A DNA stretch of 62,722 nt from a virus, in IMG/VR virus record IMGVR_UViG_3300005826_000008, positions 1 to 62,722 of that record; one strand, 5' to 3'. Under the pieces are notes generated by a model. The model was not told the DNA's origin. It did not search any database and saw only the letters and a program-made list of their open reading frames with translations. The stretch's first letter is position 1; each line of letters opens with the position of its first letter. The position numbers were made by a program, and so were the translations under genes. Below, piece after piece: positions 115 to 45,232 of this stretch.

Positions 115-142
115 TTGACGTCAGGGGAGGCGTGCTTACATT
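115..142 (+). promoter_or_regulatory. Predicted promoter for the Ro60 gene (TTGACG-16-TACATT)
   Basis: TTGACG at 115-120 and TACATT at 137-142 are separated by 16 bases. The preceding GG and the GC-rich spacer resemble the promoter at 7635-7662. Six more sites in the window share the TTGACN / TANNTT layout, which is why this is called despite a non-consensus -10. Confidence 0.6.
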
Positions 143-207
143 CTAAATATGGCGCGGTGGTCGCGCTGCGATTTGTTGAATTTTTTCAAACAATAAAGGA
201 GTCTATT

Positions 208-1785
208 ATGGCAAACAAGAGTCTATTTTCAAGCAAGGGAAACAGCAACAAGCATTCGGTTAAGGTAGTTCGTAAGGCGGATACTCATAACTTGGCTGGA
301 GGTACTGCATATAAGTTGTCTGATAAGGCAGCTTTGGCGCAGTATGCTATGACAGGAACTTTCCAGGGAACATTTTATGCTGATGGTAAGAGTCAGTTAA
401 CTAAAGTTTTGGAAATGTCGAATAAGGTTGATGAAGAATTCCTTGCAAAGCTTGCAGTATATTCTAGGCAGCAAGGTTTTATGAAGGATATGCCTGCTGT
501 TCTTGCAGCTGTGGTTGCGGGAAGAGACTCTTCTTTATTGGAGAAGATCTTTCCAAAGGTCGTGGATAATCCAAAGATGGCAAGGAATTTTGTTCAGGTT
601 ATTCGTTCGGGTGCTACAGGACGTAAGTCTCTTGGAACTCGTCCAAAGAAGTTGATGCAAGCATACTTGTCAGGATTGAATGATGTCCAATTGTTCAAGG
701 CAAATATTGGCAACGATCCATCGTTGGCTGATATGATCAAGTTGGTTCACCCAAAGCCAGGCTCCAAGAGCAGAAATGCTTTGTATGCTTATCTTTTGGG
801 TAAGGAACATAGTGTTGAAGCATTGCCTCAATTGGTTAGAGACTTCGAGGTCTTCAAGAAGGAACTTGGGGCAGAAATGCCTGACGTTCCATTCCAGATG
901 TTGACGGCTTTGCCATTGACGAAGGATCACTGGAAGACCATTGCGCGTAATGCAACATGGAATCAAATCAGGCAAAACTTAAACACCTTTGCTCGTCATG
1001 GTGTGTTTGAGGATGAAAAGCTTGTCTCTGCTTTGGCAGAGAAGCTTTCTAACCCTGATCAGGTTAAGAGAGCAAAGGTATTCCCATACCAGTTGTTCAC
1101 TTCTTACCTGAACATTGATTCTAGCGTCCCAAAGAAGTTGTCGATTGCTTTGCAAAAGGCAGCTGATCTTTCTCTTGAGAACATTCCTGAAATGGAAGGT
1201 CAAGTCTATGTAATGGTAGACGTTTCTGGTTCTATGAGTTGGTCAATCACGGGTAACCGTGGATCTGCTACAAGCAAGATGCAGTGCGTTGATGTTGCGG
1301 CATTGATTGCATCTTCAATCTTGCGTAAGAACCCAGAGACTGTTATCCTTCCATTCGATACCAGTGTGCATAAGACTAACTTGAATCCTATGGATTCTAT
1401 TATGACGAATGCCAACATCTTGCGTAAGTTTGGTGGTGGTGGAACGAACTGTTCTCTTCCTTTGGCTCTTCTTAACCAACAAAAGGCAAAGGGCAACCTA
1501 GTTATCTATGTTAGCGATAACGAGAGCTGGGTTGATAGCACTCGCAGTTATGGAAGAGGAACTGAAACCATGAACCAGTGGCAGAAGTTCAAGGGACGCA
1601 ACCCAAAGGCAAAGCTTGTTTGTATTGATTTGAATCCAAATAGTACAACCCAAGCTCACGATCGCCCTGATATTCTCAATGTTGGATCATTTTCTGATAA
1701 TGTGTTTAATGTGGTTTCTACATTCACAAAGTTTGGTAATGATAAGGATCTTTGGGTCTCTGAGATAGAGAAAGTTAGTCTATGA
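208..1785 (+). CDS. rsr: Ro60/TROVE-domain RNA-binding protein
   Basis: A 525-residue protein of the Ro60 family, ring-shaped RNA chaperones that bind Y RNAs and misfolded RNAs and work with exoribonucleases in RNA quality control. The start at 208 (MANKSLFSSK) is chosen because AAAGGAG lies just upstream; a longer frame opens at 115 but overlaps the promoter. The N-terminal two thirds is the HEAT-like TROVE region. The C-terminal third is a von Willebrand A fold with an intact MIDAS motif (DVSGSMSWS near residue 370). Length and domain order match bacterial Ro60. It overlaps the next gene by 4 bases, and a structured RNA candidate follows at 2617. In a phage with a huge tRNA set it may bind phage Y-like RNA or tRNA precursors; that role is inference. 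Confidence 0.93.
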   Translation: MANKSLFSSKGNSNKHSVKVVRKADTHNLAGGTAYKLSDKAALAQYAMTGTFQGTFYADGKSQLTKVLEMSNKVDEEFLAKLAVYSRQQGFMKDMPAVLAAVVAGRDSSLLEKIFPKVVDNPKMARNFVQVIRSGATGRKSLGTRPKKLMQAYLSGLNDVQLFKANIGNDPSLADMIKLVHPKPGSKSRNALYAYLLGKEHSVEALPQLVRDFEVFKKELGAEMPDVPFQMLTALPLTKDHWKTIARNATWNQIRQNLNTFARHGVFEDEKLVSALAEKLSNPDQVKRAKVFPYQLFTSYLNIDSSVPKKLSIALQKAADLSLENIPEMEGQVYVMVDVSGSMSWSITGNRGSATSKMQCVDVAALIASSILRKNPETVILPFDTSVHKTNLNPMDSIMTNANILRKFGGGGTNCSLPLALLNQQKAKGNLVIYVSDNESWVDSTRSYGRGTETMNQWQKFKGRNPKAKLVCIDLNPNSTTQAHDRPDILNVGSFSDNVFNVVSTFTKFGNDKDLWVSEIEKVSL

Positions 1786-7681: not shown

Positions 7682-7764
7682 TAAAAAATCACTAACTGAT
7701 TGAAAAAGTTGAAAACTAATACGCATAATGATATATAGTCTTTAGGATATTGGTTATTATTTAT

Positions 7765-7840
7765 AGGAAAGTAGCTCAGGATGGAGCGCGTGGCGTTGGT
7801 GCTTCGAGGTCGAATGGTGAAAGTCCTTCCTTTCCTACCA
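7765..7840 (+). tRNA. tRNA, anticodon not resolved
   Basis: Acceptor AGGAAAG pairs with CTTTCCT, TA and the D stem GCTC/GAGC follow, and ACCA ends the gene. The anticodon arm (7789-7806) and T loop (TGAAAGT instead of TTCRANN) depart from consensus. The gene may be degenerate. Confidence 0.55.
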
Positions 7841-7841
7841 A

Positions 7842-7905
7842 GGCAAATGCCGTAGGGATTACATTTACAGAAAATAAATAACAGATCTCTACATTATTAG
7901 TTGCC
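7842..7905 (+). repeat. GGATTACATT element, copy 1 (minimal form)
   Basis: Outer helix GGCAA (7842-7846) / TTGCC (7901-7905); second helix GTAG/CTAC; left box GGGATTACATTT; right box ATCTCTACATT. The interior holds only a hairpin with a 5-bp stem (ATTTA/TAAAT) and 7-base loop followed by AACAG, shaped like an anticodon arm. It lies between two tRNAs. Confidence 0.75.
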
Positions 7906-7910
7906 ACAAT

Positions 7911-7985
7911 GGTACATTGGTCCAACGGTTAAGACGCTGTGCTGATAACGCGGAAACCTAAGTTCAACTCTTAGATGTACCACCA
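7911..7985 (+). tRNA. tRNA-Ile (GAT)
   Basis: Acceptor GGTACAT/ATGTACC, anticodon loop CTGATAA in a 5-bp stem with G-T pairs, and an encoded CCA. Confidence 0.9.
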
Positions 7986-7989
7986 TCAT

Positions 7990-8093
7990 GGACTAGCAGC
8001 TCGAAGAAGGAGCACCGGGACTTGAGCGAACAGCATAGAGTTATAAAAAATTCACCCGAAGGTTGTAGGTTAAATTCCTATCTTAGTCCACCA
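7990..8093 (+). tRNA. tRNA with a 35-base anticodon loop (intron-like insert)
   Basis: Acceptor GGACTA/TAGTCC, D stem GCTC/GAGC, T arm GTAGG/CCTAT and CCA are all present. The anticodon stem CGGG (8016-8019) finds its partner CCCG only at 8055-8058, leaving a 35-base loop instead of 7. The loop starts ACTTGAG. If about 28 bases were removed the tRNA would be normal; the identity cannot be fixed until the splice points are known. Confidence 0.6.
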
Positions 8094-8145
8094 AGACGAC
8101 CTCCTTTGTCTAGACTTGTGGCAAGTCTTTAAACTGCCTCTTTAT

Positions 8146-8216
8146 AGGTACGAGTCAAGGTGACAACAGAGCCTCCAAAACTCTGGAAGAGGGTTCGATT
8201 CCTTCCGTGCCTGCCA
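8146..8216 (+). tRNA. tRNA-Trp (CCA)
   Basis: Acceptor AGGTACG/CGTGCCT, anticodon loop CTCCAAA, T arm GAGGG/CCTTC. The upstream 50 bases hold two short hairpins and no gene. Confidence 0.85.
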
Positions 8217-8282
8217 TCTGAATGCTAGGTTGGGATTACATTTTTATTTGGAAAACAAACATCTCAATCACTTTTTGTCAGA
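8217..8282 (+). repeat. GGATTACATT element, copy 2 (minimal form)
   Basis: Outer helix TCTGA (8217-8221) / TCAGA (8278-8282). Second helix GGTTG/CAATC replaces the GTAG/CTAC of copy 1, keeping pairing. Left box GGGATTACATTT, right box ACATCTCAATC. A small TTTT/AAAA hairpin fills the interior. Confidence 0.72.
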
Positions 8283-8287
8283 TACTA

Positions 8288-8375
8288 TCCCGACTGAATC
8301 GATGGCTGGGACCATCCCTTGGCTGTAAACCAAGTGCCGAAGTGCTATGAGGTTCGATTCCTTCAGGCGGGACCA
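8288..8375 (+). tRNA. tRNA-Tyr (GTA)
   Basis: Anticodon stem CTTGG/CCAAG with loop CTGTAAA and a long variable arm, as expected for bacterial tRNA-Tyr. T arm and CCA are present; the acceptor has one mismatch. Confidence 0.85.
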
Positions 8376-8376
8376 A

Positions 8377-8470
8377 GCTTTCACTGATATATTTCTGGCG
8401 GAATATCTGCACGTGCAGTGTCAGGAACCACATGTGGTTTGGGGTTCGATTCCTCCTGTGTTAGCCTAGA
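8377..8470 (+). tRNA. tRNA-Leu-like remnant (CAG?)
   Basis: A T arm (GGGG TTCGATT CCTC) and a variable-arm hairpin (AACCACATGTGGTT) are clear, and GTGTCAGGA resembles a Leu-CAG loop. I cannot build an acceptor stem or a CCA end, so it is probably degenerate. Confidence 0.3.
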
Positions 8471-8516
8471 GAAAGCACTTTATGTGCCTTGTTCGTTGAC
8501 AATATGATAATACTAT

Positions 8517-8609
8517 GGGCTTCTGGTGTAATCGGAATCGTAAAGGTTCTAACAACATATCTAGCGAGTGAGCTAGAAGTTGCAGGTGCAAATCCTGCGG
8601 AGCCCACCA
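8517..8609 (+). tRNA. Class II tRNA (long variable arm), anticodon uncertain
   Basis: Acceptor GGGCTTC/GGAGCCC, variable arm CTAGC/GCTAG, T stem GCAGG/CCTGC and CCA are all good. The anticodon arm around AAGGTTCTAACAACAT does not pair normally. A Leu or Ser identity is likely from the long variable arm. Confidence 0.65.
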
Positions 8610-8739
8610 ATGGCAAATGCAGTATGGCTTTACATTGCATTATAAGCACGAGGTTATAGGTTCGAGTCCTATTGTCACTGTGTTGACATAGCTCAATTGG
8701 TAGAGCGCGTAAAACTGAAGTCTACATTTTTGTTGCCAT
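8610..8739 (+). tRNA. GGATTACATT element copy 3 holding a permuted tRNA-Ile (TAT)
   Basis: Outer helix ATGGCAA (8610-8616) / TTGCCAT (8733-8739). Inside, a tRNA 3' half (8637-8679: anticodon loop ATTATAA, variable region, T arm ATAGG/CCTAT, acceptor strand) precedes a 5' half (8682-8710: acceptor strand GTTGACA, TA, D arm GCTC/GAGC, CGT). Joined 5'-to-3', the anticodon stem becomes CGTGC/GCACG with U33 and anticodon TAT. One acceptor mismatch remains and the linker between tRNA ends is only 2 bases, with no CCA. The gene order is reversed compared with any normal tRNA. Confidence 0.7.
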
Positions 8740-8745
8740 TTATTT

Positions 8746-8821
8746 CGGAGCAATGGCTTGTTGGTAAGCCGCCAGTTTTGGGTACTGGAGATTGCGAGTT
8801 CGACTCTCGCTGTTCCGACCA
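8746..8821 (+). tRNA. tRNA-Pro (TGG)
   Basis: Acceptor CGGAGCA/TGTTCCG, anticodon stem CCAGT/ACTGG with loop TTTGGGT, T arm GCGAG/CTCGC, CCA. Confidence 0.9.
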
Positions 8822-8850
8822 CACTGTAATTTCACTATGATCTACAGTGT
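8821..8850 (+). terminator. Hairpin ACACTGTA/TACAGTGT between tRNAs
   Basis: An 8-bp perfect inverted repeat with a 14-base loop. No U-tract follows, so it could be a processing hairpin rather than a terminator. Confidence 0.35.
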
Positions 8851-8869
8851 ATATTACAATTAGAAGGAT

Positions 8870-8944
8870 CAGGGATTGGTGTTTAATGGTAGCATAGTCG
8901 GTTTGGATCCGAGCGGTCCGGTTCGAATCCGGTATCCCTGACCA
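8870..8944 (+). tRNA. tRNA-Pro (TGG), second copy
   Basis: Acceptor CAGGGAT/ATCCCTG, anticodon loop TTTGGAT, T arm GTCCGG/CCGGTA, CCA. The sequence differs throughout from the copy at 8746, so this is not a recent duplication. Confidence 0.8.
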
Positions 8945-9036
8945 ATGATTAGAAGTAGCATGGTGTATAGGGAGATCCTATAACGAAAATTCAAAAATTC
9001 AAAAGAAGTTTCATGAAACACTACTTCTAATTTTAT

Positions 9037-9114
9037 ATATCCGTAGCTTTAAAATACAAAGCACCACACATGTAGTGTGGATGGTTGTCGGTGTAAACCC
9101 GATCGGATATACCA
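9037..9114 (+). tRNA. tRNA-Thr (TGT) with A at position 33
   Basis: Acceptor ATATCCG/CGGATAT, D stem GCTT/AAGC, anticodon stem CCACA/TGTGG, T arm GTCGG/CCGAT, CCA. The loop is CATGTAG, giving TGT with A instead of the near-universal U33. A second tRNA-Thr with normal U33 is at 13565. Confidence 0.72.
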
Positions 9115-9261
9115 TGGCAAATGCCGTTTGGCTTTACATTGCATTCGAAGCGCGAGGGCGTTGGTTCAATTCCAACTGCGGGTGCCAGTTTTAAAAATAC
9201 ACGCCCGCATGGTGTATGATGGACAGCACACGAAAATAGAGTCTTACATTTTTGTTGCCAT
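9114..9261 (+). tRNA. GGATTACATT element copy 4 holding a permuted tRNA-Arg (TCG)
   Basis: Outer helix ATGGCAA (9114-9120) / TTGCCAT (9255-9261). The 3' half (9141-9187) has anticodon loop ATTCGAA, variable region, T arm GTTGG/CCAAC, acceptor TGCGGGT and an encoded GCCA end. A 15-base linker follows, then the 5' half (9203-9232): acceptor GCCCGCA and D arm GTGT/GCAC. The acceptor pairs over all seven positions (one G-T). The anticodon stem is rebuilt if the 5' part ends at CG and the 3' part starts at TGC. Among the clearest permuted units because it keeps CCA. Confidence 0.75.
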
Positions 9262-9298
9262 TTATTTCAGTAAATCTTTTTGGCAAGTGTCTTAATTT

Positions 9299-9321
9299 AG
9301 GATTACAAACTATTTGTAATC
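9299..9321 (+). terminator. Terminator-like palindrome GGATTACAAA/TTTGTAATCC
   Basis: A 10-bp perfect inverted repeat with a 3-base loop just upstream of the HNH gene. It lacks a U-run but could stop or process the tRNA transcript. Confidence 0.5.
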
Positions 9322-9339
9322 CTTGATATATATCTTGGT

Positions 9340-9861
9340 ATGGACGCTAAAATTTGTACTAAGTGTGGTGAAAATAAAAATATAGATTGTTTTTCTCCCA
9401 GAGAAAATGGAAAATTTGCGAGTGCTTGTAAAAAATGTAAAGCTTCTTATAGAAGAGAGAAGTATAAAGCCAAACCAAAAGAGCAATATGAGATACTATA
9501 TGAAAAAGTATGTAGTATTTGTGGAGAGTTAAAATCAATTGAAGATTTTTATAAGAATTCTAGATGCTCTACGTACAGAAATGAATGTAAAGAGTGTCTT
9601 AAAGTAAGAGTCTTAAATTATCGTACAGAGATTATAGAGTTAGTTAGAGAATTAAAATCTAAACCATGCACAGATTGTGGTTGTGTTTTCCCTTATTATG
9701 TCATGGATTTTGATCATAAAGAAGGACACGAAAAATTATTTGAAATCTCTCAAATGAGACGTCATTCTAAAGAGTTAGTTTTATTGGAAATACAAAAATG
9801 TGATCTTGTTTGTTCTAATTGTCATCGTATTAGAACTTTCAATAGACTCGATAAAAAATAA
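9340..9861 (+). CDS. HNH endonuclease with zinc ribbons
   Basis: A 173-residue free-standing nuclease. Two or three CxxC zinc pairs come first (CTKCGE, CKKC, CSICGE, CKECL), followed by the HNH core CTDCGCVFPYYVMDFDHKEG and the closing CSNCHRIRTFNR. The gene sits inside the tRNA array, which is typical of mobile homing endonucleases. No intron around it is apparent. Confidence 0.86.
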   Translation: MDAKICTKCGENKNIDCFSPRENGKFASACKKCKASYRREKYKAKPKEQYEILYEKVCSICGELKSIEDFYKNSRCSTYRNECKECLKVRVLNYRTEIIELVRELKSKPCTDCGCVFPYYVMDFDHKEGHEKLFEISQMRRHSKELVLLEIQKCDLVCSNCHRIRTFNRLDKK

Positions 9862-9961
9862 CTTGCTTTCTGTCGGCGCTGAAACATGCACAATGACAGA
9901 ACCACTGAGTGTAGCCTCGATGATGATCCATTAATTTGGTCAGCTACACATGGTGGGAAAC
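9862..9961 (+). other. Gene-free spacer with a long stem
   Basis: CTGTC/GACAG and CCACTGAGTGTAGC / GCTACACATGGTGG form two stems. No ORF or tRNA is recognisable. Confidence 0.4.
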
Positions 9962-10035
9962 GGCGCATTCGTCTATCGGTAGGATACCAGGCTTTCAACC
10001 TGAGAAGAGGGGTTCGACTCCCCTATGCGTCACCA
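9962..10035 (+). tRNA. tRNA-Glu (TTC)
   Basis: Acceptor GGCGCAT/ATGCGTC, anticodon stem CAGG/CCTG with loop CTTTCAA, T arm GGGG/CCCC, CCA. Confidence 0.9.
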
Positions 10036-10767
10036 TTAAAGAGTAGAGACACATGATTGTTTTCATCATGTTGATGACCAAATCTATCATCAACAGCGAT
10101 ACCTGGATCATGTATTAAAACTGTAACCTGGTGGAGCCGGCGGTATTTATATCGCCCCCAATTCTTCATTACATTGAATTGTAATGAAGAGTCTAATACC
10201 GAATGTAGTCAGGATTACATTTGACACAAAATCAAAACCAAAACATCTTGGCATTCTTTGTCGGTAATTAACTTATGTCATTTAATTATTCATTTAGTTG
10301 AGTGACACTATGATCTTCTTAGTAGGTAGGCTTAAGAGCAGCCATCCTTTAAAGAGTTGCCAATGGTAGAGAATTGTTAATAGCAGTATATCCTCGATAG
10401 ATGAATGTTATTGTGACATTCATTGAAGCGTTGCCGCTAGGCATTGATGCTAATATTAGCGCTTATTAGCGGAGCCTTTTAGTCCGATGAATTATGCGGA
10501 CGTAGAACCATCGGGAAGTGAATGAGTGTAGGACTTATCAACTGATTTTTCTAACCCTAGTAATAGGGGGAATTCCTATTTTGACGTTGATAGGGAGTAA
10601 ACTTCAGTAGCATATGGCTGGTTTTGCCCACACTGGCTAGGAGGAATTGTGGGTTTGACTTAAAGGAATGTATCGGACAGCTACACCTTAAGGACGACCA
10701 GTACAGCCCTAAGAGCATTTGGCGTAACAGCACACTATTAAGATCATTATCTTGGAGAATAAAGTTT
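10036..10767 (+). ncRNA. ~730-base gene-free, hairpin-rich region (possible ornate large RNA)
   Basis: No convincing ORF with a ribosome-binding site lies here. Several good hairpins occur: GTTGATGA/TCATCAAC, CTTCATTAC/GTAATGAAG (10164-10190), CCGCTA/TAGCGG near 10430-10480, and TTAGTCCGATGA with a matching ATCGG. Large structured RNAs of the GOLLD and ROOL classes are known beside phage tRNA arrays, so such an RNA is possible. I could not match a specific consensus. Element copy 5 is embedded at 10197-10266. Confidence 0.35.
10197..10266 (+). repeat. GGATTACATT element, copy 5 (minimal form)
   Basis: Outer helix TACCGA/TCGGTA; second helix GTCAG/CTTGGC; box AGGATTACATTT; internal hairpin TTTGA/TCAAA with a 7-base loop; right box AAAACATCT. 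Confidence 0.75.
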
Positions 10768-11271
10768 ATGAAAAGTGTAAAAGATGAAATTAGTTCTATA
10801 GAAAAAGAGATAACAGAAAAACAGCATAGTTTAAAACAACTTAAATCTATGTTGGAATCTTATCCAGATCTGGAAGTTCATACGGGAAGATGGAATAAGA
10901 AAGTATATTCTTCGAGAAGTGTAAATAGTTTAGTTAATAATTATGATGATAGACACAATTGTGGATGTTGTTCTGACTCGCCTTTGGAAGTTTGGACATA
11001 TTTAGAAACAGAATATGGCAAAGTATATTCTTCTCCTGCAATGTTTTTTATTGGACAAAAGAATGAATATGGATATGGAGATTTACCTGATCCAGGTTGG
11101 GAAGATAAACTTAGGAAAGAAAACATTCCAGAAGAATTAATTGAAAAAATGTCTAGTCTTTTTTCAGACGAAGAGTATAGAGAAGAGTATAATGACGATG
11201 ATGACGATGATGACGATGATGACGATGATGACGATGATGACAATGATGACAATGATGACAATGATGATTAA
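10768..11271 (+). CDS. Hypothetical protein with poly-aspartate tail (167 aa)
   Basis: The start at 10768 (MKSVKDEISS) follows TTGGAG at a good distance; the frame is open further upstream but that part overlaps the structured region. Residues 1-35 look like a coiled coil. A central Cys/His patch (HNCGCCSDSP) may bind zinc. The last ~25 residues are almost all Asp with a few Asn, encoded by a GAT/GAC repeat. A long acidic tail can mimic DNA or bind basic proteins; the actual role is unknown. Confidence 0.7.
   Translation: MKSVKDEISSIEKEITEKQHSLKQLKSMLESYPDLEVHTGRWNKKVYSSRSVNSLVNNYDDRHNCGCCSDSPLEVWTYLETEYGKVYSSPAMFFIGQKNEYGYGDLPDPGWEDKLRKENIPEELIEKMSSLFSDEEYREEYNDDDDDDDDDDDDDDDDNDDNDDNDD
11194..11268 (+). 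repeat. GATGAC triplet repeat coding the Asp tail
   Basis: A run of GAT/GAC codons in a near-regular 9-base period, ending in three GACAATGAT units. Such tracts expand and contract by slippage. Confidence 0.8.
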
Positions 11272-11274
11272 ATG

Positions 11275-11330
11275 GTGACGTAGCCCAACTGGCAGCGGCG
11301 ATAGCCTTAGAAGCTATTCAGTGTGAGGAA
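11275..11330 (+). tRNA. tRNA-Leu (TAG), 5' part only
   Basis: GGTGACG, TA, a Leu-type D arm and the anticodon stem ATAGC/GCTAT with loop CTTAGAA closely resemble the intact tRNA-Leu at 14797. After the anticodon arm no T arm or matching acceptor strand follows. It is a truncated gene, or a 5' half whose partner lies elsewhere. Confidence 0.5.
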
Positions 11331-11358
11331 GTCGTCCGATGATTTTGTTAAGTTTGAA

Positions 11359-11457
11359 ATGACTAGACTTCATAAACCACAAAAGGTTTTATTAGCTCAT
11401 TTGAAAGAATCGTATTGGGGTATTGCCTTTATAAAGGAGATTGATGATGACTCTTAG
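11359..11457 (+). CDS. Small hypothetical protein (32 aa)
   Basis: A short frame starting MTRLHKPQKVLLAH and ending IKEIDDDS. It overlaps the start of the next gene, whose ribosome-binding site (AAGGAG) lies within it. The composition is protein-like but the upstream Shine-Dalgarno is weak. Confidence 0.4.
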   Translation: MTRLHKPQKVLLAHLKESYWGIAFIKEIDDDS

Positions 11458-11662
11458 AGGAAAGTTACAAGCGTTAGTTTCAAGTGGAGATCTTAGATCT
11501 TTTAATTATCAAGAAGGAATTCTTGATGAAACTAATAGGGAAGTAGATGTTTTGGAATTGGTATATCCTTCTGGAAGAAAAATTAAGTTAACTACTTTTT
11601 GTTCAGGATGTTTAGAGTCAAGTGGATTTCTTCTTCTTTTAGATAAACCCTCTGAAGATTAA
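11441..11662 (+). CDS. Hypothetical protein (73 aa)
   Basis: Not recognised. AAGGAG precedes two adjacent ATGs (11441, 11444). A single CSGC pair is present. It lies between tRNAs. Confidence 0.68.
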   Translation: MMMTLRGKLQALVSSGDLRSFNYQEGILDETNREVDVLELVYPSGRKIKLTTFCSGCLESSGFLLLLDKPSED

Positions 11663-11668
11663 TGGTAT

Positions 11669-11742
11669 GGGGCGCGAGTAGGATGCGAATACGGCACGTT
11701 TGCACCGTGCAAGACGGGGATGGTAACCCCGGCGCTCCACCA
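11669..11742 (+). tRNA. tRNA-Ala (TGC)
   Basis: Acceptor GGGGCGC/GCGCTCC, anticodon stem GCACG/CGTGC with loop TTTGCAC, CCA. The T loop (TGGTAAC-like) is unusual. Confidence 0.82.
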
Positions 11743-11745
11743 ATA

Positions 11746-11821
11746 TGTTGGTAATGACATTAAAAGTCAACCAGCTACAAAACGGCTGGTAGGGTGAGTG
11801 GAAGACTCACAGCCAACACCA
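11746..11821 (+). tRNA. Non-canonical tRNA-like gene
   Basis: Acceptor GTTGG/CCAAC, D stem TGAC/GTCA, anticodon stem CCAGC/GCTGG, T stem GTGAG/CTCAC and CCA are clear. But the D loop lacks GG, the T loop is TGGAAGA, and the anticodon loop has nine bases without a usable U33. It may be a tRNA mimic or a decayed tRNA. Confidence 0.5.
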
Positions 11822-11822
11822 T

Positions 11823-11942
11823 GAAACAAATGTCAGAATGCTTTACATTTATTATATGATATAGGTTCAAATCCTTTCCGACCCGCTATATGGGTCGGCT
11901 GCACATTGGCGAGTGCTACAAGTATTCAATTTTTGTTGTTTC
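11823..11942 (+). tRNA. GGATTACATT-type element copy 6 holding a permuted tRNA
   Basis: Outer helix GAAACAA (11823-11829) / TTGTTTC (11936-11942). Inside, a T arm (AGG TTCAAAT CCT) and acceptor strand CCGACCC (11878-11884) come before acceptor strand GGGTCGG (11892-11898) and a D arm GCAC/GTGC. The acceptor is a perfect 7-bp helix closed by a 7-base linker. The left box is GCTTTACATTT, as in copies 3 and 4. The anticodon cannot be assigned. Confidence 0.65.
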
Positions 11943-11967
11943 AAAATTTAAAATGGAGAAAGTTATA

Positions 11968-12183
11968 ATGTGTTCTGATTCAAATATAGATTATTCAAAT
12001 CCAGATGAAGCTTTTTGGCAAGGAAAAAAAGTCTGCTGAAAAAGAATTAATAAATGAAATTCGTTCTTTGAAAAGAGAAGTATCCCGACTTAAGAGTAAA
12101 GTTCGTTTGCTAGAAGAGAATATCAAATTAAAAAATAGAGTTAAAGAATTAGAAGATGGTGTTCGTAAAATGATCGGGGCATG
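11968..12183 (+). pseudogene. Coiled-coil protein gene split by a +1 shift at A7
   Basis: ATG at 11968 (GGAGAA upstream) opens a frame that stops at 12037-12039, just after a run of seven A at 12024-12030. Skipping one A gives an uninterrupted 71-residue protein: MCSDSNIDYSN at the start and a long coiled coil (SLKREVSRLKSKVRLLEENI) at the end. It could be a sequencing indel, a real frameshift mutation or recoding. Confidence 0.55.
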
Positions 12184-12224
12184 ATAGCAGATTCCCATCG
12201 ATTGACGGAACCGCCGGAGGGTGT

Positions 12225-12296
12225 AGCGGGGAGGGACGGTCCCAAGTAAGAGTCATGATCTTACCGCTCTAAGTTCAATTCTTAGTCCCGCAACCA
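12225..12296 (+). tRNA. tRNA-Met/Ile2 (CAT)
   Basis: Anticodon stem GTAAGA/TCTTAC with loop GTCATGA; acceptor GCGGGG/TCCCGC; T arm TAAG TTCAATT CTTA; CCA. Initiator versus elongator versus lysidine-modified Ile cannot be told apart here. Confidence 0.78.
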
Positions 12297-12418
12297 ATGC
12301 TGTGCTCAATTCCAAGTCTGACGCACGGCTTATTAATGACTTGGGGGTTACTCATTCACTCTTAGCGGCAACCTTTATCCATGATGCGTTGCAAATAGAA
12401 TGAGAGCATGGATACTAT
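12297..12418 (+). other. Gene-free spacer with two stems
   Basis: CCAAGTC/GACTTGG and CTCATTC/GAATGAG helices occupy most of the interval. No gene seen. Confidence 0.4.
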
Positions 12419-12501
12419 GCGGGTAAAGTCTCAATGGCGGGACACCAGCCTTCCAAGCTGGCGAGGTAAAACGCAGATGAGTTCGATTCTCATTACTCGC
12501 T
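12419..12501 (+). tRNA. tRNA-Gly (TCC) with enlarged variable loop
   Basis: Acceptor GCGGGTA/TACTCGC, anticodon stem CCAGC/GCTGG with loop CTTCCAA, T arm ATGAG/CTCAT. The variable region is about 14 bases (CGAGGTAAAACGCA) instead of about 5. CCA is not encoded. Its 3' end overlaps the next minus-strand gene by a few bases. Confidence 0.8.
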
Positions 12502-13185
12502 CAATTTATAGTTAATAATCTTTGTAATGATATCGATATATTTTCTAGCTTTCAATGGTTTAAAGTTCTTCATAGAAGATGTATCTATTATAACTAATTC
12601 AATTTCTTGTTCTAAACAGGCTTGGAACTTCCTGTTGTCGTTGTTTTGAATAGATGCTAATTTTTCTACACCATAAATTGGTTCATAGTGAAAGATGCCG
12701 TTTAATTCAAAAGCTAAATTGAGAGAAGGAATGTAGATATCAAGCTCGGAATTGATCTCTTCTTTTGAGTTGTATTTAACATCTAATTCTGGATATAAAG
12801 AATTAAGTTGTTCTTCTAACCATTTTTCTAGTTTAGATCTTCTAGTTCCACTAGTTTTATGAGTGTTGTAGTAGGTGGTTGCACAACTATGAGAACAAAA
12901 ATTGTTTCCACTATCTGTTAATTCAGAAGGTATCTTTGTAAAAGTTTTATTACAATGAGCACAATGAATTGTAATTGTTTTATCTCTGGCTTCATTAAAG
13001 CATTTGTATGAACAGTATATTGCTGGTTGTTTGTGTGTTTTGATTTTACTTTGAATCACATTTTTTATTCTTATAAATGTTTGATTGCAGTTAGGACAGG
13101 TTAGTTTTACTTCCGTCTTTGATGGAAGCGAGTCGATATATTGGATGAAGTTTTTATTTTGTGAAGCATACATAACTGTATACAT
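12493..13185 (-). CDS. Vsr/PD-(D/E)XK-like homing endonuclease, minus strand
   Basis: A 230-residue protein. The N-terminal half has two zinc modules (CPNCNQTF...CSYKCFNEA; CAHCNKTF...CSHSCATTY). The C-terminal half resembles the Vsr-like (EDxHD) nuclease fold: SELDIYIPSLNLAFELNG with the acidic residues, then the HYEP segment and ELVIID. Phage homing endonucleases of this design are known. It is inserted opposite to the array and abuts a tRNA-Gly. Confidence 0.75.
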   Translation of the reverse strand: MYTVMYASQNKNFIQYIDSLPSKTEVKLTCPNCNQTFIRIKNVIQSKIKTHKQPAIYCSYKCFNEARDKTITIHCAHCNKTFTKIPSELTDSGNNFCSHSCATTYYNTHKTSGTRRSKLEKWLEEQLNSLYPELDVKYNSKEEINSELDIYIPSLNLAFELNGIFHYEPIYGVEKLASIQNNDNRKFQACLEQEIELVIIDTSSMKNFKPLKARKYIDIITKIINYKLSE

Positions 13186-13307
13186 TAAAAATGATAGTTT
13201 CGATTCCGGTTATCCGCTCTGCATGCTAGGAACAAGCATCGTGGATTCATCTTACTGGTTAGATGATGTAACAAGAACCTTCTCATCAAAGGTGTTCCAT
13301 AGTTTAA
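13186..13307 (+). other. Spacer with an orphan tRNA 3'-end-like sequence
   Basis: TTTCGATTCCGGTTATCCGC near 13198-13218 looks like a T loop plus acceptor strand, but no matching 5' part is adjacent. The nuclease gene beside it may have displaced a tRNA. Confidence 0.3.
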
Positions 13308-13557
13308 TTTGATGAATGTAGTTAGGGATTACATTTAACAATAAATAACGCGATAATATGGTGAATAACCGCCACTCCGAAACATGTTATGAGTGGTAAA
13401 CCAGATCTTAAAATATATATGTCTCGTGATCTTGTAGCGAGTAAAGCTTGCAAGACCCGTATGATTCTAAAGGTGATTACTTCTTATGAAAATAAGGTGG
13501 GTTAAACTGAATCAACATTCCTTTCGGGGAAACATCTCTACATTCTTTGTCATCAAA
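13308..13557 (+). repeat. GGATTACATT element, copy 7 (long insert)
   Basis: Outer helix TTTGATGA (13308-13315) / TCATCAAA (13550-13557), eight base pairs. Second helix GTAG/CTAC, left box GGGATTACATTT with hairpin ATTTA/TAAAT, right box AAACATCTCTACATT. The ~180-base interior holds hairpin CCACTC/GAGTGG and others but no tRNA halves that I can assign. Confidence 0.65.
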
Positions 13558-13564
13558 CAAACAT

Positions 13565-13636
13565 AATCGTATAGCTTAATTTAAAGCCCTGTATTGTATA
13601 CGGGAGATTTTGGTGAAAATCCAAATGCGGTTACCA
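13565..13636 (+). tRNA. tRNA-Thr (TGT)
   Basis: Acceptor AATCGTA/TGCGGTT, D stem GCTT/AAGC, anticodon stem CCTGT/ACGGG with loop ATTGTAT, T arm TTTGG/CCAAA, CCA. Confidence 0.85.
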
Positions 13637-13747
13637 AAAGGAATAATAATCTAATCTGTCTGATCGCAGGTTGGATTGCTATAGTGTGTAGGTCAGGGCA
13701 CACTAGAAGTTTCTGGGTCGTCTAAACACCTGGAGTTATTCTGCTAT

Positions 13748-13833
13748 GGTCTCGTGGCGGAATTGGCATACGCAGCAGTCTCAAAAACTGTGCCCTTATG
13801 GGCTTGTGGGTTCGACTCCCACCGGGACTACCA
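13748..13833 (+). tRNA. tRNA-Leu (CAA)
   Basis: Anticodon stem CAGT/ACTG with loop CTCAAAA, long variable arm TGCCCTTATGGGCT, T arm GTGGG/CCCAC, CCA. Confidence 0.88.
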
Positions 13834-13852
13834 AAATAAAAGAGGTTTAATA

Positions 13853-14389
13853 ATGAATGATTGGATTGAATTAAATTTGCCTTATTCATATTATGAGAGT
13901 TTGGAAACACCAGATCTACCTGATTTGGATGATAGAATAAAGCAAAAGTTTGGTAAACTTCCTGAGGAAGTAAAGGTTTTGTTATCTCAGTTTGGAGATG
14001 AAGCTTATAAAAAATATTATAAGCTTTGTCTTAAAGGAAAGAGTCAAAAAGATCTTGAGAAGTCTAATGATAAAGATATTCAGGCGATAGTGTCTTATAA
14101 ATCTCTTGAAGAAGAAATTGATAATTGGTATTGGGTTCAGCCTGAAGTGGCAGAATGGGAATCTTTATGTGATAAGTTAAGAAAAGAACATAAAGAAAAA
14201 ATAAAATCTAAATCATTTTCTAGTTTAGGTTTAAACAAACCTGGAGTACTTATTGAAGTAGAGCAAGACGGAAAAGATGTTCAATATCTTATTGGAGATA
14301 TAAATACTTCATGTGGTGTCTGTAATGATTGTACAGCTTTTAGTGATGATACGATTGTGAAGAGGTATAAAATTGTATGGCAAGAATAA
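13853..14389 (+). CDS. Hypothetical protein (178 aa)
   Basis: Not recognised. The start at 13853 (MNDWIELNLPYSY) follows AGAGG, directly behind the tRNA-Leu. The protein is acidic and helical, with a cysteine group near the C-terminus (TSCGVCNDCTAF) that may bind metal. It overlaps the TTG start of the next gene. Confidence 0.72.
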   Translation: MNDWIELNLPYSYYESLETPDLPDLDDRIKQKFGKLPEEVKVLLSQFGDEAYKKYYKLCLKGKSQKDLEKSNDKDIQAIVSYKSLEEEIDNWYWVQPEVAEWESLCDKLRKEHKEKIKSKSFSSLGLNKPGVLIEVEQDGKDVQYLIGDINTSCGVCNDCTAFSDDTIVKRYKIVWQE

Positions 14390-14795
14390 AATAGAGATAG
14401 TCGGAAAGTATGGAGCTTTTCATCTTTCGATGCCAGATGATATTAGTGAATCTGATATATTAATGATTCATAATATAATTACCCCTTTATTGGATGGCAA
14501 GAATGTTAGTGAGATAGTAGGATCTTTTTCACCTGGTGATGTAACTCCTACTACTTGTTTGAAATACAAGATCACTTTTTGTTTTTCTTCTCCCAGATCT
14601 TTTGAGAAGTTGAGGGCAGTATCTGCGTTGAGGAAAGCTTTTAGTGAGATATCTCTTAAGGAATCAAAAGATATAGTGGATGGAATAAAAGAGTTACCTC
14701 CTATTTATGCTGAAGAACTTTATCATTTGAATAGTATTTTTAATGATAAAGGAGTTACCTCTTATAAGGCAGAGTTAGTAGTGGTTGAAATATAA
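14373..14795 (+). CDS. Protein with ribosomal bL12-like C-terminal domain (140 aa)
   Basis: The start is a TTG at 14373, with AGAGG nine bases upstream and no earlier ATG. The stretch EKLRAVSALRKAFSEISLKE followed by SKDIVDGIKELPP matches the bL12 C-terminal pattern (K-x-x-VIKxVRxxxxLGLKEAKxLVExxP), the part of the ribosomal stalk that recruits EF-Tu and EF-G. The N-terminal ~70 residues are not recognisable as the bL12 dimerisation domain. Stalk mimicry fits a phage that also carries EF-Tu and EF-Ts, but similarity is limited to about 35 residues. Confidence 0.5.
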   Translation: MYGKNKIEIVGKYGAFHLSMPDDISESDILMIHNIITPLLDGKNVSEIVGSFSPGDVTPTTCLKYKITFCFSSPRSFEKLRAVSALRKAFSEISLKESKDIVDGIKELPPIYAEELYHLNSIFNDKGVTSYKAELVVVEI

Positions 14796-14796
14796 T

Positions 14797-14883
14797 GGTG
14801 CTGTGGCGTAACTGGCAGCCGCGCTAGACTAAGAATCTAGAGTTCGAAAGAACGTGTGGGTTCAACTCCCACCAGCACCACCA
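14797..14883 (+). tRNA. tRNA-Leu (AAG)
   Basis: Acceptor GGTGCTG/CAGCACC, anticodon stem CTAGA/TCTAG with loop CTAAGAA, long variable arm, T arm GTGGG/CCCAC, CCA. An A34 Leu tRNA is uncommon in bacteria. Confidence 0.88.
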
Positions 14884-15009
14884 AAGTGAATGCAGTAAGG
14901 ATTACATTACAGTGAACTTCCAGGTCCAGGTGAAAATCCTGGTATTGCGAAAGTAATATGGTATAACTAGTATCGGAAGAAAAAAGTATCTTTACAATTT
15001 TTGTCACTT
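14884..15009 (+). repeat. GGATTACATT element, copy 8 (tRNA-like insert with GAAA loop)
   Basis: Outer helix AAGTGA/TCACTT; second helix GTAAG/CTTTAC. Inside, CTTCC, a T-arm-like CCAGG TGAAAAT CCTGG, then GTATTGC-GAAA-GTAATAT, a 7-bp acceptor-like stem closed by a GNRA tetraloop, a D-arm-like GGTA/TATC and GGAAG. GGAAG and CTTCC would form an anticodon stem if the ends were joined, with GTG in the loop but no U33. It looks like a permuted tRNA whose ends have been fused. Confidence 0.6.
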
Positions 15010-15013
15010 CAAT

Positions 15014-15096
15014 GCCTGGTTCGCTCAGTGGAAGAGCATTCGGCTGTTAACCGAACGGGTAAAACCAACGGGAGTTCGATTCTCTCATCAGGCGCA
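15014..15096 (+). tRNA. tRNA-Asn (GTT) with enlarged variable loop
   Basis: Acceptor GCCTGGT/ATCAGGC, D stem GCTC/GAGC, anticodon stem TTCGG/CCGAA with loop CTGTTAA, T arm GGGAG/CTCTC. The variable region is about 14 bases (CGGGTAAAACCAAC). No encoded CCA. Confidence 0.85.
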
Positions 15097-15120
15097 ACTT
15101 CTAAAGTAAACCAGAAGTGG

Positions 15121-15426
15121 ATTACACGCGTTGTTGAAAAAATTGTCGAGAAAACAACCCCTAATCCTAACCCGAGTAATTTTATAATTATAAGGCACAA
15201 AGAGGTTGATATAAATCTAGTAGTTGAGGTCAAGTATCCGGACGCAACGAATTACGAGGGGAGAAAGATAATGGTTTATAGAAACCTATCTTTCAATGAT
15301 ATTAAGAACACAAAGTTTCTTGACCCTCATTTCTGCGACCATGGTAATTGCATATCACCATTTGCTAGACTTCGACCAACAGATTCTGGTTGGATTGCAG
15401 CCATAGCTCTTGCAAAGATGATATAA
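15121..15426 (+). CDS. Hypothetical protein, start uncertain (~52-102 aa)
   Basis: The frame is open from within the tRNA-Asn and looks coding from about 15121, but no ATG/GTG/TTG is available before ATG at 15271, which has a strong GGGGAGAAAG site. The shorter 52-residue form (MVYRNLSFND, ending IAALAKMI-like) is therefore the safest start; upstream residues such as LVVEVKYPDATNYEG suggest an N-terminally truncated older gene. Function unknown. Confidence 0.5.
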   Translation: MTRVVEKIVEKTTPNPNPSNFIIIRHKEVDINLVVEVKYPDATNYEGRKIMVYRNLSFNDIKNTKFLDPHFCDHGNCISPFARLRPTDSGWIAAIALAKMI

Positions 15427-15662
15427 TGCAAATAAAGTTAGAGAAAGCTTCTGGTAGGGCAATATGTCGTCATCTTGATTGTAAAAGGAAGCCAGAGTAC
15501 ATAAATGAATCTGGTCGTATTATTAAGGGTACAATTTGTTGTAAAATTTCTGTTGGTACTGCTGCTGGTTGGTTTTCAGCTTTTTATTGCAGAGATTGTT
15601 TAGAGAAGATACATGATGAGATAAGAGAGAAGTTGAATCCAAAGTTATGGATTTTTAGTTGA
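15426..15662 (+). CDS. Small zinc protein, GWxxAxYCxxC family (78 aa)
   Basis: Starts MQIKLEKASG as TAATG overlap with the preceding stop. Cysteine pairs CRHLDCK, CC and YCRDC suggest a zinc site. The segment GTAAGWFSAFYCRDCLEKI parallels GTSGWTAALYCKKCMPAIL in the protein at 44687, so the two are paralogues. It ends KLWIFS, the shared C-terminal motif. Confidence 0.68.
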   Translation: MQIKLEKASGRAICRHLDCKRKPEYINESGRIIKGTICCKISVGTAAGWFSAFYCRDCLEKIHDEIREKLNPKLWIFS

Positions 15663-15666
15663 ATAT

Positions 15667-15745
15667 GTTCCTGTCGTCTAATAATCATAGGACATCCGTC
15701 GCGATGAGGCGGGGAATCTAGGTTGATATCCTAGTGGGAGCGCCA
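15667..15745 (+). tRNA. tRNA, anticodon uncertain (possibly GAT)
   Basis: Acceptor GTTCCTG/TGGGAGC (several G-T pairs), D stem GTC/GAC, stem CCGTC/GGCGG with loop GCGATGA, T arm CTAGG/CCTAG, GCCA. Position 33 would be C, so the frame of the loop is unsure. Confidence 0.6.
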
Positions 15746-15746
15746 A

Positions 15747-15813
15747 AGTTTTCTGAGGTTTTTTGGTAAAAACGCTGACGAGTATTGCAAGGTTCGATTC
15801 CTGCCAGGAAACT
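15747..15813 (+). tRNA. Shortened tRNA-like sequence
   Basis: Acceptor AGTTTTC/GGAAACT and T loop TTCGATT are clear, but the region between is too short for normal D and anticodon arms. Probably a deletion derivative. Confidence 0.35.
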
Positions 15814-15816
15814 AAT

Positions 15817-15938
15817 GTACAAATGCTAGTAAGGGATTACATTTTATATTGTGAATAAAACAGCGAAGTTCGATTCTTCGGGTTTCCGTGAGGGAACTGC
15901 GTGGTGCCAGAAAACATCTCTTGCAATTTTTGTTGTAC
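15817..15938 (+). repeat. GGATTACATT element, copy 9 (tRNA-like insert)
   Basis: Outer helix GTACAA/TTGTAC; second helix GTAAG/CTTGC. The interior has an anticodon-arm-like hairpin TTTAT/ATAAA, T arm CGAAG TTCGATT CTTCG, then GGTTTCC-GTGA-GGGAACT, an acceptor-like helix closed by a GNRA loop. No D arm or CCA. Confidence 0.6.
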
Positions 15939-15983
15939 AAAAATTTATAGAATATAATAGTTAATACTTTTGTATTCTACTAT

Positions 15984-16170
15984 GTAACAAATGTCAGAAA
16001 GGATTACATTTTATTCTGATTAAATAAACAGGTGGGTTCAATTCCCACGCCTCCAACCAAATTCCATACTATGTATGGTGCCCCAGGGCTCTGAGGGAGC
16101 AAGTATCGGAGCTGCTTTATTGGAGGTGCAGGCGCCAGTCAAACTAATCTTTTCACCCTTTCGTTGTTAC
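15984..16170 (+). tRNA. GGATTACATT element copy 10 holding a permuted tRNA (Ile GAT?)
   Basis: Outer helix GTAACAA/TTGTTAC; second helix GAAAG/CTTTTC. Anticodon-like arm TTATT/AATAA with loop CTGATTA, T arm GTGGG/CCCAC, acceptor GCCTCCA and ACCA (to 16059) precede a 61-base linker and the opposite acceptor strand TGGAGGT (16121-16127). The D arm is not evident, so function as a tRNA is uncertain. The linker contains hairpins CCATAC/GTATGG and GCTC/GAGC. Confidence 0.55.
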
Positions 16171-16173
16171 TAT

Positions 16174-16249
16174 GGGTCTCTTGCCAACGTGGTCAAGGCA
16201 ATGCACTGAAAATGCATTTATCTCGGTTCGATTCCGTGGGGGCTCACCA
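16174..16249 (+). tRNA. tRNA-Phe (GAA)
   Basis: Acceptor GGGTCTC/GGGGCTC, D stem GCC/GGC, anticodon stem ATGCA/TGCAT with loop CTGAAAA, CCA. Confidence 0.9.
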
Positions 16250-16392
16250 GACAGAATGCTTGGAGGATTTACATAGCAAATCAACTGTAAATTGATAAGA
16301 TAGTAAGTGAAAACCTTACCTCGCCCACCATATCACGATGCAATCTTATGGGCGAGAAGCAAAACAAATAATTCTTCGTACTTTGTCTGTCT
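16249..16392 (+). tRNA. Element copy 11 holding a permuted tRNA-Tyr (GTA)
   Basis: Outer helix AGACAGA (16249-16255) / TCTGTCT (16386-16392). The 3' half has anticodon arm ATCAA CTGTAAA TTGAT, T arm GTAAG/CTTAC, acceptor CTCGCCC and ACCA (to 16330). After a 19-base linker comes GGGCGAG (16350-16356), a perfect 7-bp partner, then AAGC. The break is in the D region here rather than the anticodon stem, and only GC/GC remains of the D stem. The left box is GGATTTACAT. Confidence 0.65.
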
Positions 16393-16395
16393 TAA

Positions 16396-16470
16396 CGGCT
16401 TGTAACAAAGTGGTCTATGTGCCTGTCTGATAAGCAGGTTATGTGAGTTCAATTCTCACCAAGCCGACCA
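16396..16470 (+). tRNA. tRNA-Ile (GAT), second copy
   Basis: Acceptor CGGCTTG/CAAGCCG, anticodon stem CCTGT/GCAGG with loop CTGATAA, T arm GTGAG/CTCAC, CCA. Confidence 0.88.
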
Positions 16471-16487
16471 AGGAAAGATAATTAGTA

Positions 16488-16727
16488 ATGAATATAGTAA
16501 AAAAGTTTTCTACTGATTTAGAAGTGGAAAGAAAAAATTCTATTTATAGTAAGGAAGCATTTTTAGAATGGGGACTTGGTGATGATGGAAATTTATATGC
16601 CAGATATTCTATATCTGGATTTCATAGTGATTCGTGGGTGAAAAGCGAGAATATTTCTTTTAGTATTTCACTGAAAGAAATGGAAAAAATTGTTAAAGAG
16701 TTTTCTAAACTTGTAATTTTTACATGA
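16488..16727 (+). CDS. Small hypothetical protein (79 aa), C-terminal motif family
   Basis: Start MNIVKKFSTD with AAGGAAAG upstream. It ends EFSKLVIFT, the hydrophobic C-terminal motif shared by many small proteins of this phage. No other feature recognised. Confidence 0.65.
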   Translation: MNIVKKFSTDLEVERKNSIYSKEAFLEWGLGDDGNLYARYSISGFHSDSWVKSENISFSISLKEMEKIVKEFSKLVIFT

Positions 16728-16923: not shown

Positions 16924-18093
16924 ATGAACAAGACACATGTGAATGTTGGAACAATCGGTCACGTAGATCATGGCAAAACAACATTAACTGCGGCTATACT
17001 TGCAGTACAGTCGCAAGTTGGATTAGCGAGGGTTAAGTCGTATGCGGATATTGCAAAGGGCGGAACAGTCAGAGATGAGAATAAGACTGTTACAATTGCA
17101 GTTTCGCATGTCGAATATGAATCTGATGCTCGTCATTATGCTCACATCGATTGTCCGGGACATGCCGACTACATTAAGAACATGATTACTGGTGCTGCTC
17201 AAATGGATGGCGCTGTATTGTTGGTAGATGGTAGTCAAGGTCCACAACATCAAACAAAAGAACACATTCTACTTGCTCGTCAAGTTGGTGTGGAAAAGAT
17301 TGTTGTGTTTATTAATAAGATAGATGTTTCTGATCCAGAGCTTCTTGAGCTTGTAGTAATTGAAACATCTGAATATCTTGAGGCACAAGGCTACGGAGAT
17401 TCTCCTATTGTTATGGGTTCCGCACTTAAAGCATTGCGTGATCCGGTTAATGAGGGGCAATGCATCAAGGATTTGATTGCAGCTATTGATTCTCATATTC
17501 CGGATCCAAAGCGTGATTTTGAGTCTCCTTTTATGCTTCCTATTGAAGGGGTGCATACAATTGAAGGGCGCGGAACAGTTGTTACTGGAAGGATAGCTCG
17601 TGGAGTTCTTCCTGTTGGTTCTAAGGTTGAGATTATTGGTCTTGTAGATGAAGACTCAAAACCAAGAGTTGTAGTTGTAACAGGTATCCAAATGTTTCAT
17701 AAGGATCAAAAAGAAGCTAGAGCGGGTGAAAATTGTGGACTTTTGCTTCGTGGAGTTAAGAGGGACGAGGTAGTTCGTGGGCAAGTATTAATTGCTCCAG
17801 GTTCTGTTAGCCCAAAGACTAAAGCGAGAGCAGAGTTGTTTATGATTCCAGGAAAAGAAGGTGGTAGACATACTCCAATTTTCCCAGGTTATAAACCACA
17901 ATTCTTTTTTGGAACAACTGATGTTACAGGGGCAGTGACTAACTTTGGTGAATTGAAAATGCTTTCTCCTGGAGAGCACGCTGAAGTTAGTCTCGAACTT
18001 CTAAAACCTGTTGGAATGGAAGCTGGAATGAGGTTTGCTGTTCGTGAAGGCGGACAGACTGTTGCAGCAGGTATAGTTGTGAGTGTTGAGTAA
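16924..18093 (+). CDS. tuf: Translation elongation factor Tu
   Basis: A 389-residue EF-Tu, the GTPase that delivers aminoacyl-tRNA to the ribosome. All three domains are present: G1 GHVDHGKTT, G3 DCPGHADY, G4 NKID (NKCD in most bacteria), G5 SALKAL; domain 2 from about residue 205; domain 3 ending FAVREGGQTVAAGIVV. Switch I is divergent: the usual RGITI is replaced by NKTVTI, keeping the threonine that binds Mg. AAGG precedes the start. It sits within the tRNA array. The divergence suggests long residence in the phage line and perhaps escape from host factors that act on EF-Tu. Confidence 0.97.
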   Translation: MNKTHVNVGTIGHVDHGKTTLTAAILAVQSQVGLARVKSYADIAKGGTVRDENKTVTIAVSHVEYESDARHYAHIDCPGHADYIKNMITGAAQMDGAVLLVDGSQGPQHQTKEHILLARQVGVEKIVVFINKIDVSDPELLELVVIETSEYLEAQGYGDSPIVMGSALKALRDPVNEGQCIKDLIAAIDSHIPDPKRDFESPFMLPIEGVHTIEGRGTVVTGRIARGVLPVGSKVEIIGLVDEDSKPRVVVVTGIQMFHKDQKEARAGENCGLLLRGVKRDEVVRGQVLIAPGSVSPKTKARAELFMIPGKEGGRHTPIFPGYKPQFFFGTTDVTGAVTNFGELKMLSPGEHAEVSLELLKPVGMEAGMRFAVREGGQTVAAGIVVSVE

Positions 18094-21693: not shown

Positions 21694-21760
21694 AGGCAAA
21701 TGCGAGTGGGAATACATTTAACTGCTAATTAAAAACGATTCTCATTCATTTTTGTTGCCT
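21694..21760 (+). repeat. GGATTACATT-type element, copy 13 (minimal form)
   Basis: Outer helix AGGCAA (21694-21699) / TTGCCT (21755-21760); second helix GAGTG/CATTC; box GGAATACATTT; internal hairpin TTTAA/TTAAA with loop CTGCTAA. It precedes a tRNA directly. Confidence 0.75.
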
Positions 21761-24796: not shown

Positions 24797-24939
24797 GAAA
24801 CAAATGCTCGATAGGATTACATTTACAATAGCATTCCAAGCCGGAGATGGAGGTCCGATTCCTTCTGCGCGGTTTATATCTGCGCATAGTTTAATGGTAT
24901 GACTCCGTCGTTAAATATCTTGTCACTTCTTGTTGTTTC
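24797..24939 (+). tRNA. Element copy 14 holding a permuted tRNA-Gly (TCC)
   Basis: Outer helix GAAACAA (24797-24803) / TTGTTTC (24933-24939); second helix GATAG/CTTGTC. The 3' half (24831-24872: GC ATTCCAA GC CGG, T arm GGAGG/CCTTC, acceptor TGCGCGG) precedes a 7-base linker and the 5' half (24880-24907: CTGCGCA, TA, D arm GTT/GAC, CCG). Joining them gives a perfect anticodon stem CCGGC/GCCGG with U33 and anticodon TCC, and a full acceptor helix. This is the best reconstruction across the proposed splice point. Confidence 0.78.
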
Positions 24940-45135: not shown

Positions 45136-45210
45136 GCGAATGTAGCTCAATGGTAGAGTGCAACCTTGCCATGGTTGATGTTGTGAGTTCGAACCTCATC
45201 ATTCGCTCCA
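45136..45210 (+). tRNA. tRNA-Gly (GCC)
   Basis: Acceptor GCGAATG/CATTCGC, anticodon stem CAACC/GGTTG with loop TTGCCAT, T arm GTGAG/CTCAT, CCA. Confidence 0.93.
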
Positions 45211-45232
45211 GGTAATAATTATACATTCATTT

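Follow-up and report, generated by a model that had tools for sequence, protein, structure and literature searches.

The 62,722-nt window (the whole stretch of DNA that was analyzed, a linear IMG/VR virus record in which ARAGORN finds 25 tRNA genes) contains at positions 9114 to 9261 what is most likely a divergent YrlA-type Y RNA of a phage, carrying its tRNA-like effector module in permuted order. Three features tie it to YrlA RNAs: its two ends pair into a stem that bears the conserved AUGC and UUG boxes, its tRNA-like module runs in the permuted order T arm, acceptor, D arm, and the same genome encodes a Ro60 protein. What is unusual here is the completeness of its tRNA-Arg module. We infer that the RNA is expressed, that the P1/P2 stem into which its ends pair is most likely gripped by the phage Ro60, and that the loop end presents the tRNA-like module as a mimic (serving Ro60 particles as tether or decoy) instead of releasing a decoding tRNA. 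The parts of the unit and two protein-coding genes that bear on its interpretation are the following:

9114 to 9261, plus strand: whole unit, putative Y RNA with permuted tRNA-Arg(TCG) module (sequence and ARAGORN; near-copy of 8610 to 8742)
9114 to 9120, plus strand: 5' strand of P1 (ATGGCAA), pairing with TTGCCAT at 9255 to 9261; P1 covaries across the family
9121 to 9125, plus strand: conserved AUGC box (ATGCC) of the Ro60-type stem; AUGC is in the Rfam YrlA consensus and nearly invariant in alignment A1 (see below)
9126 to 9134, plus strand: 5' strand of P2, forming 7/9 pairs with 9239 to 9247, with two U.U mismatches; P2 covaries across the family
9135 to 9138, plus strand: conserved UACA at the stem/tRNA junction, invariant in 20/20 stems of alignment A1
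9140 to 9187, plus strand: 3' half of tRNA-Arg (anticodon TCG 9145 to 9147, T arm 9160 to 9176, acceptor 9177 to 9183, G73, CCA 9185 to 9187)
9188 to 9202, plus strand: 15-nt linker from the encoded CCA to the 5' half (sequence)
9203 to 9232, plus strand: 5' half of tRNA-Arg (acceptor 9203 to 9209, D arm 9212 to 9229, C27-G28 at 9231 to 9232)
9239 to 9247, plus strand: 3' strand of P2 (sequence)
9248 to 9261, plus strand: UUUUUG box and 3' strand of P1 (sequence; UuG in the YrlA consensus)
115 to 1785, plus strand: Ro60 gene (TROVE and vWA), the presumed partner (PF05731 1.5e-11, PF25045 9.5e-17; Deinococcus Rsr 2nvo 7.5e-20)
49784 to 50386, plus strand: RNA ligase, a possible joiner of RNA halves (phrog_548, 1.7e-13)

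The 3' half is encoded ahead of the 5' half. ARAGORN recognizes no tRNA in the insert in this order; when the insert ends are joined, it reports a complete tRNA-Arg(tcg) whose anticodon stem has 5 bp. The anticodon TCG sits in the loop ATTCGAA, and the 3' acceptor strand (TGCGGGT at 9177 to 9183, followed by G 9184 and CCA) faces the 5' strand GCCCGCA in seven of seven pairs, one of them G.U. The initial annotation had described permuted halves around a 15-nt linker, a fully paired 7-bp acceptor, and an encoded CCA, all of which agree with the sequence. It had also pointed to flanking boxes shared with a tRNA-Ile(TAT) unit at 8610, and indeed both units have GGCTTTACATT and the same outer helix; their left sides match at 80% over 65 nt and their right sides at 24/24. 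By eye, the module meets P2 in a three-way junction. Folding free energy alone is unremarkable (z -1.44; 21/200 shuffles fold as well).

The assignment to YrlA runs through the near-copy at 8610, as the 9114 unit itself gives no match to the Rfam YrlA model RF02553. This model aligns over its full length to 8610 to 8742 with 42.9 bits, and the AUGC, UAC, and UUG boxes are likewise part of its consensus. It also matches units in G010, G007, G006, and G001 (E 1e-15 to 4e-10, 45 to 65 bits). The 8610 unit and all other virus units lie below the gathering score of 69 bits, a threshold of curation and not of biology, while two bacterial units with the same stem lie above it (71.7 bits in L219, 71.6 bits in L203). 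Because RF02553 at E up to 0.1 also matches 11 of 14 control genomes, only strong full-length matches were counted. The Rfam YrlA consensus lacks an anticodon hairpin, which appears in the alignment of 8610 as a 15-nt insertion. Short stems from Massilia match YrlB (RF02565), and no window stem was among the YrlB matches listed in an Rfam search of 7700 to 16500.

Published work shows YrlA to superpose on tRNA via circular permutation (PMC11472068), with a module that resembles the D, T, and acceptor arms (PMC8394870). It also describes a tRNA-like partner of phage TROVE proteins (PMC7824862) and the occurrence of YrlA in several phages (PMC7765460), so that a permuted tRNA-like RNA in a Ro60-encoding phage is of a known kind. 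The boxes shared with the 8610 unit are those of the Ro60-type stem of a Y RNA, a link absent from the initial annotation, and permutation is normal for YrlA. The further claim of the initial annotation that the CCA proves a processed tRNA terminus is left unsupported; some sister acceptors are closed by tetraloops, and RtcB is missing in 12/12 records. Against the Y RNA reading stand the CCA, the anticodon hairpin, and the open linker, which go beyond the needs of a mimic, as well as the two mismatches in P2 and the lack of a match of the 9114 unit to both RF02553 and the model R1 described below. A nearly complete tRNA-Arg(UCG) module with anticodon hairpin, CCA, and open acceptor would be expected if it derived from a tRNA gene.

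The stem of the unit belongs to a family with the order P1, AUGC, P2, UACA, insert, P2', UUUUG, P1', of which 15 copies lie in the window and which is present in 11 other virus records. Copies were found with a two-strand scan (P1, AUG, P2, UACAUU, insert, P2', UUG, P1'; score cut-off 21), which returned 13 window stems, or 15 including those at 8616 and 9120 (the 8610 and 9114 units), where P2 is imperfect. When 14 regions from 11 related records were scanned together with the window, 60 matches scored at least 21, compared to 0 in the reversed control. A second scan set (L163 to L238, 606,300 bases) gave 33 such matches against 6 in the reversed sequence, and lone matches outside clusters were therefore not trusted. 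Sister units in the window include the following:

7841 to 7906, plus strand: minimal Y stem without tRNA module (two-strand scan; R1 E 2.7e-9)
8216 to 8283, plus strand: minimal Y stem (two-strand scan; R1 E 1.1e-11)
8610 to 8742, plus strand: Y stem with tRNA-Ile(TAT) module, without CCA (RF02553 full model 1-114, 42.9 bits, E 4.7e-7 or 4.1e-8)
10197 to 10266, plus strand: minimal Y stem (two-strand scan; R1 E 3.6e-10)
11824 to 11941, plus strand: Y stem with tRNA-like module without anticodon arm, acceptor 7/7 (two-strand scan)
14884 to 15009, plus strand: Y stem with tRNA-like module, GAAA-closed acceptor (two-strand scan; R1 E 2.1e-9)
15817 to 15938, plus strand: Y stem with tRNA-like module, GTGA-closed acceptor (two-strand scan; R1 E 2.2e-8)
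21694 to 21760, plus strand: minimal Y stem (two-strand scan; R1 E 3.6e-10)
24798 to 24938, plus strand: Y stem with permuted tRNA module, anticodon TCC, without CCA (two-strand scan and ARAGORN; R1 weak, E 0.52)
45018 to 45130, plus strand: Y stem with degenerate tRNA-like module (two-strand scan; R1 E 1e-7)

Covariation was assessed with alignment A1, comprising 20 of 26 short stems, all from other phages and bacteria (left out were L122:7083, L127:13023, and four window stems). Here 93.9% of cells pair, a count biased upward by the choice of stems for pairing, and in 12 of the 14 pairs both partners vary. The covariation score is 0.727 versus 0.195 after shuffling, and no slid register comes close. 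A model built from A1 and thus without the window (R1) recovers seven window stems at E 1e-7 or better; the 8610 and 9114 units, both with long inserts and imperfect P2, are unmatched. The literature includes a UACA-specific MazF of Deinococcus, and its coincidence with the UACA that is invariant at 9135 to 9138 and in the A1 stems may be fortuitous.

The family keeps company with Ro60. Of the 12 records that bear the element, 8 match the Pfam TROVE model; none of 15 control virus records does. These controls came from the same kind of pattern scans, had no convincing stems, and were picked by length. A profile of five phage Ro60s (that of the window and four drawn from the same element records) matches 10 of the 12, none of the controls, and nothing in Lak-A1. 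Among 46 bacterial stretches with the left box, 13 have a stem match, 8 have Ro60, and 7 have both, and the Ro60 of the window is 48-52% identical to those adjoining bacterial stem clusters. In Massilia (L188, L191, L200, and L209) and Planctomycetaceae (L203, L215, and L219), one to six Y stems lie beside Ro60, with long and minimal forms mixed. The cultured Myxococcus phage Mx1 (L259, OR576727.2) encodes a Ro60 51% identical to that of the window and two Y stems, including one at about 45170 to 45293; one of the two has a permuted tRNA-like module. Relatives sought via PurN and via a single Ro60 protein in viral_contigs were not found, and blastn of the window's tRNA region against phages returned single tRNAs only.

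Other genes and RNAs were seen along the way. The window encodes EF-Tu and EF-Ts (16924 to 18093 and 46635 to 47555), and at 52531 to 54991 a cytidyltransferase/NUDIX protein (phrog_395) adjoins another ORF, which we take to resemble nicotinamide phosphoribosyltransferase; the two may form a NAD salvage pair. Stretches at 10300 to 10760 presumably resemble pieces of the GTPase center of 23S rRNA; Rfam listed no rRNA there, and blastn of 10300 to 10420 against E. coli genomes gave no match. A tmRNA scores above the cut-off in G010 (L131, 9364 to 9760) and Mx1 (9732 to 10109), and G001 has a permuted-tmRNA match below it (L123, 14794 to 15251; 40.4 bits).

An alternative that we consider unlikely is a true permuted tRNA gene, in which the Y-like stem would be an intron-like carrier excised at about 28|29 of the anticodon stem and RNase P and 3' processing would then cut the resulting circle within the linker to give a working tRNA-Arg. 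The modules themselves speak for it: When the ends of 35 inserts of at least 55 nt were joined, a junction-spanning tRNA appeared in 14 (10 of them with a 5-bp anticodon stem), as opposed to 0 of 350 shuffles and 0 of 35 inserts as encoded. Among 19 modules with 6 or more acceptor pairs, 4 carry a CCA after the acceptor (binomial p 2e-4; L126 10851 among the 19 looks spurious), namely, 9120 (the 9114 unit), L122 11872, L124 7123, and L131 9045. Further support comes from the RNA ligase encoded in the window and from G003 (532,729 bases; L029, L043, and L254), where five ordinary tRNA genes carry a Y stem in-line in the anticodon region, with a TTCG or TACG loop capping P1; its Arg-TCG unit in L029 breaks at 28|29 like the 9114 unit (tRNA numbering by eye). 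Yet one in-line unit is without an anticodon arm (L254 3637), another has A at the expected U33 (L254 4983), and the position of the apparent junction, between 0 and 2 nt past UACA, follows no single rule. RtcB was found in 0 of the 12 records, although its role could be taken by the phage RNA ligase or by an RtcB of the host. Moreover, sister modules lack the anticodon arm or have acceptors capped, by eye, with GNRA or UUCG loops (GAAA at 14889 and L123 7978, GTGA at 15822, GCAA at L127 12006, and CTTCGG at L127 10865, the latter with only 5 acceptor pairs). Release of a tRNA from the 9114 unit is possible, but the tetraloop-closed acceptors mean that it cannot be the common function of these units, and the sisters without anticodon arm argue in the same direction.

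Even less probable in our view is that the units serve within a Ro60 particle as bait for, or resistant substrates of, the host's anticodon nucleases; in print, YrlA has been proposed to inhibit an anticodon nuclease (PMC7790460). In line with the bait reading, permuted units with an Asp, Asn, or His anticodon read A34 in 3/3 cases (L127 6484, L127 6628, and L124 7123), compared to G34 in 20/20 linear tRNAs of these kinds from the same regions. This post hoc observation concerns only three units, of which two share a record, and the "His" unit has a body of ambiguous identity; Arg-TCG shows no such A34-type change. We give least credence to a decaying, non-functional relic, in which tandem duplication would have caught a pair of tRNA halves between the halves of a Y stem. 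Module quality does range from complete to unrecognizable within one record, but the modules are no recent copies, and acceptor pairs, anticodon loops, and CCA nonetheless persist in several of them. An origin as recent copies of linear tRNAs was rejected on the identity of ten rejoined modules to the best-scoring linear tRNA of the sampled regions (only about 70-83%). A new class of self-splicing or endonuclease-spliced tRNA introns was rejected because the sub-threshold YrlA match and the Ro60 gene explain the boxes better, with splicing kept only as part of the permuted-gene alternative, and introns of the Lak type were rejected since both R1 and the Ro60 profile are without match in Lak-A1.

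As a YrlA-type Y RNA, which is the preferred reading, the unit may offer a view of how tRNAs gave rise to such RNAs. An in-line gene like those of G003 could have been converted by tandem duplication into a permuted form with CCA and linker. In-line genes are confined to G003 among 21 stretches with the pattern TTGTCCTTCGGGAATG, and none of 18 stretches with TTACATTGCATTNNAAGC has a stem scoring at least 21. In the excerpts surveyed from literature on permuted tRNAs in phages, tRNA introns, and YrlA/Ro60, no Y RNA combines a full tRNA with CCA, and no Y stem is placed in-line. Very tentatively, we suggest that huge phages might carry "Y-tRNAs", in which the anticodon stem of a tRNA holds a grip for Ro60, and that the in-line (G003), permuted with CCA and linker (9114), and capped forms could be successive steps, the permuted form arising by tandem duplication of an in-line copy. 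YrlA would then descend from tRNAs, and phage Ro60 might store, shield, or release real tRNAs, or offer baits, under tRNA cleavage by the host. The phage series from stem only to complete tRNA with anticodon and CCA, plus the in-line copies, makes a tRNA origin of Y RNAs testable, also at the bench with Mx1 as a cultured relative that has Ro60 and two elements.

Among known systems, the permuted tRNA genes of red algae and archaea have the 3' half ahead of the 5' half with a linker between them. The 9114 unit is alike in half order and linker, but here the halves are joined to a Ro60-type stem and RtcB is not found. The tRNAs of Lak megaphages carry introns (PMC6784885), likewise insertions in phage tRNAs, though Lak-A1 is without R1 or Ro60 profile matches. 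The short stems without tRNA module resemble YrlB (RF02565), which the Massilia copies match. The closest likeness is to YrlA (RF02553; structure 6CU1), with which the unit shares a Ro60-type stem with AUGC and UUG boxes, a permuted D/T/acceptor module, and a Ro60 in the same record. It differs in that the units of the window score below the Rfam cut-off, in the presence of 15 stems in a single phage fragment, and in that the 9114 unit keeps an anticodon hairpin, an encoded CCA, and an open acceptor.
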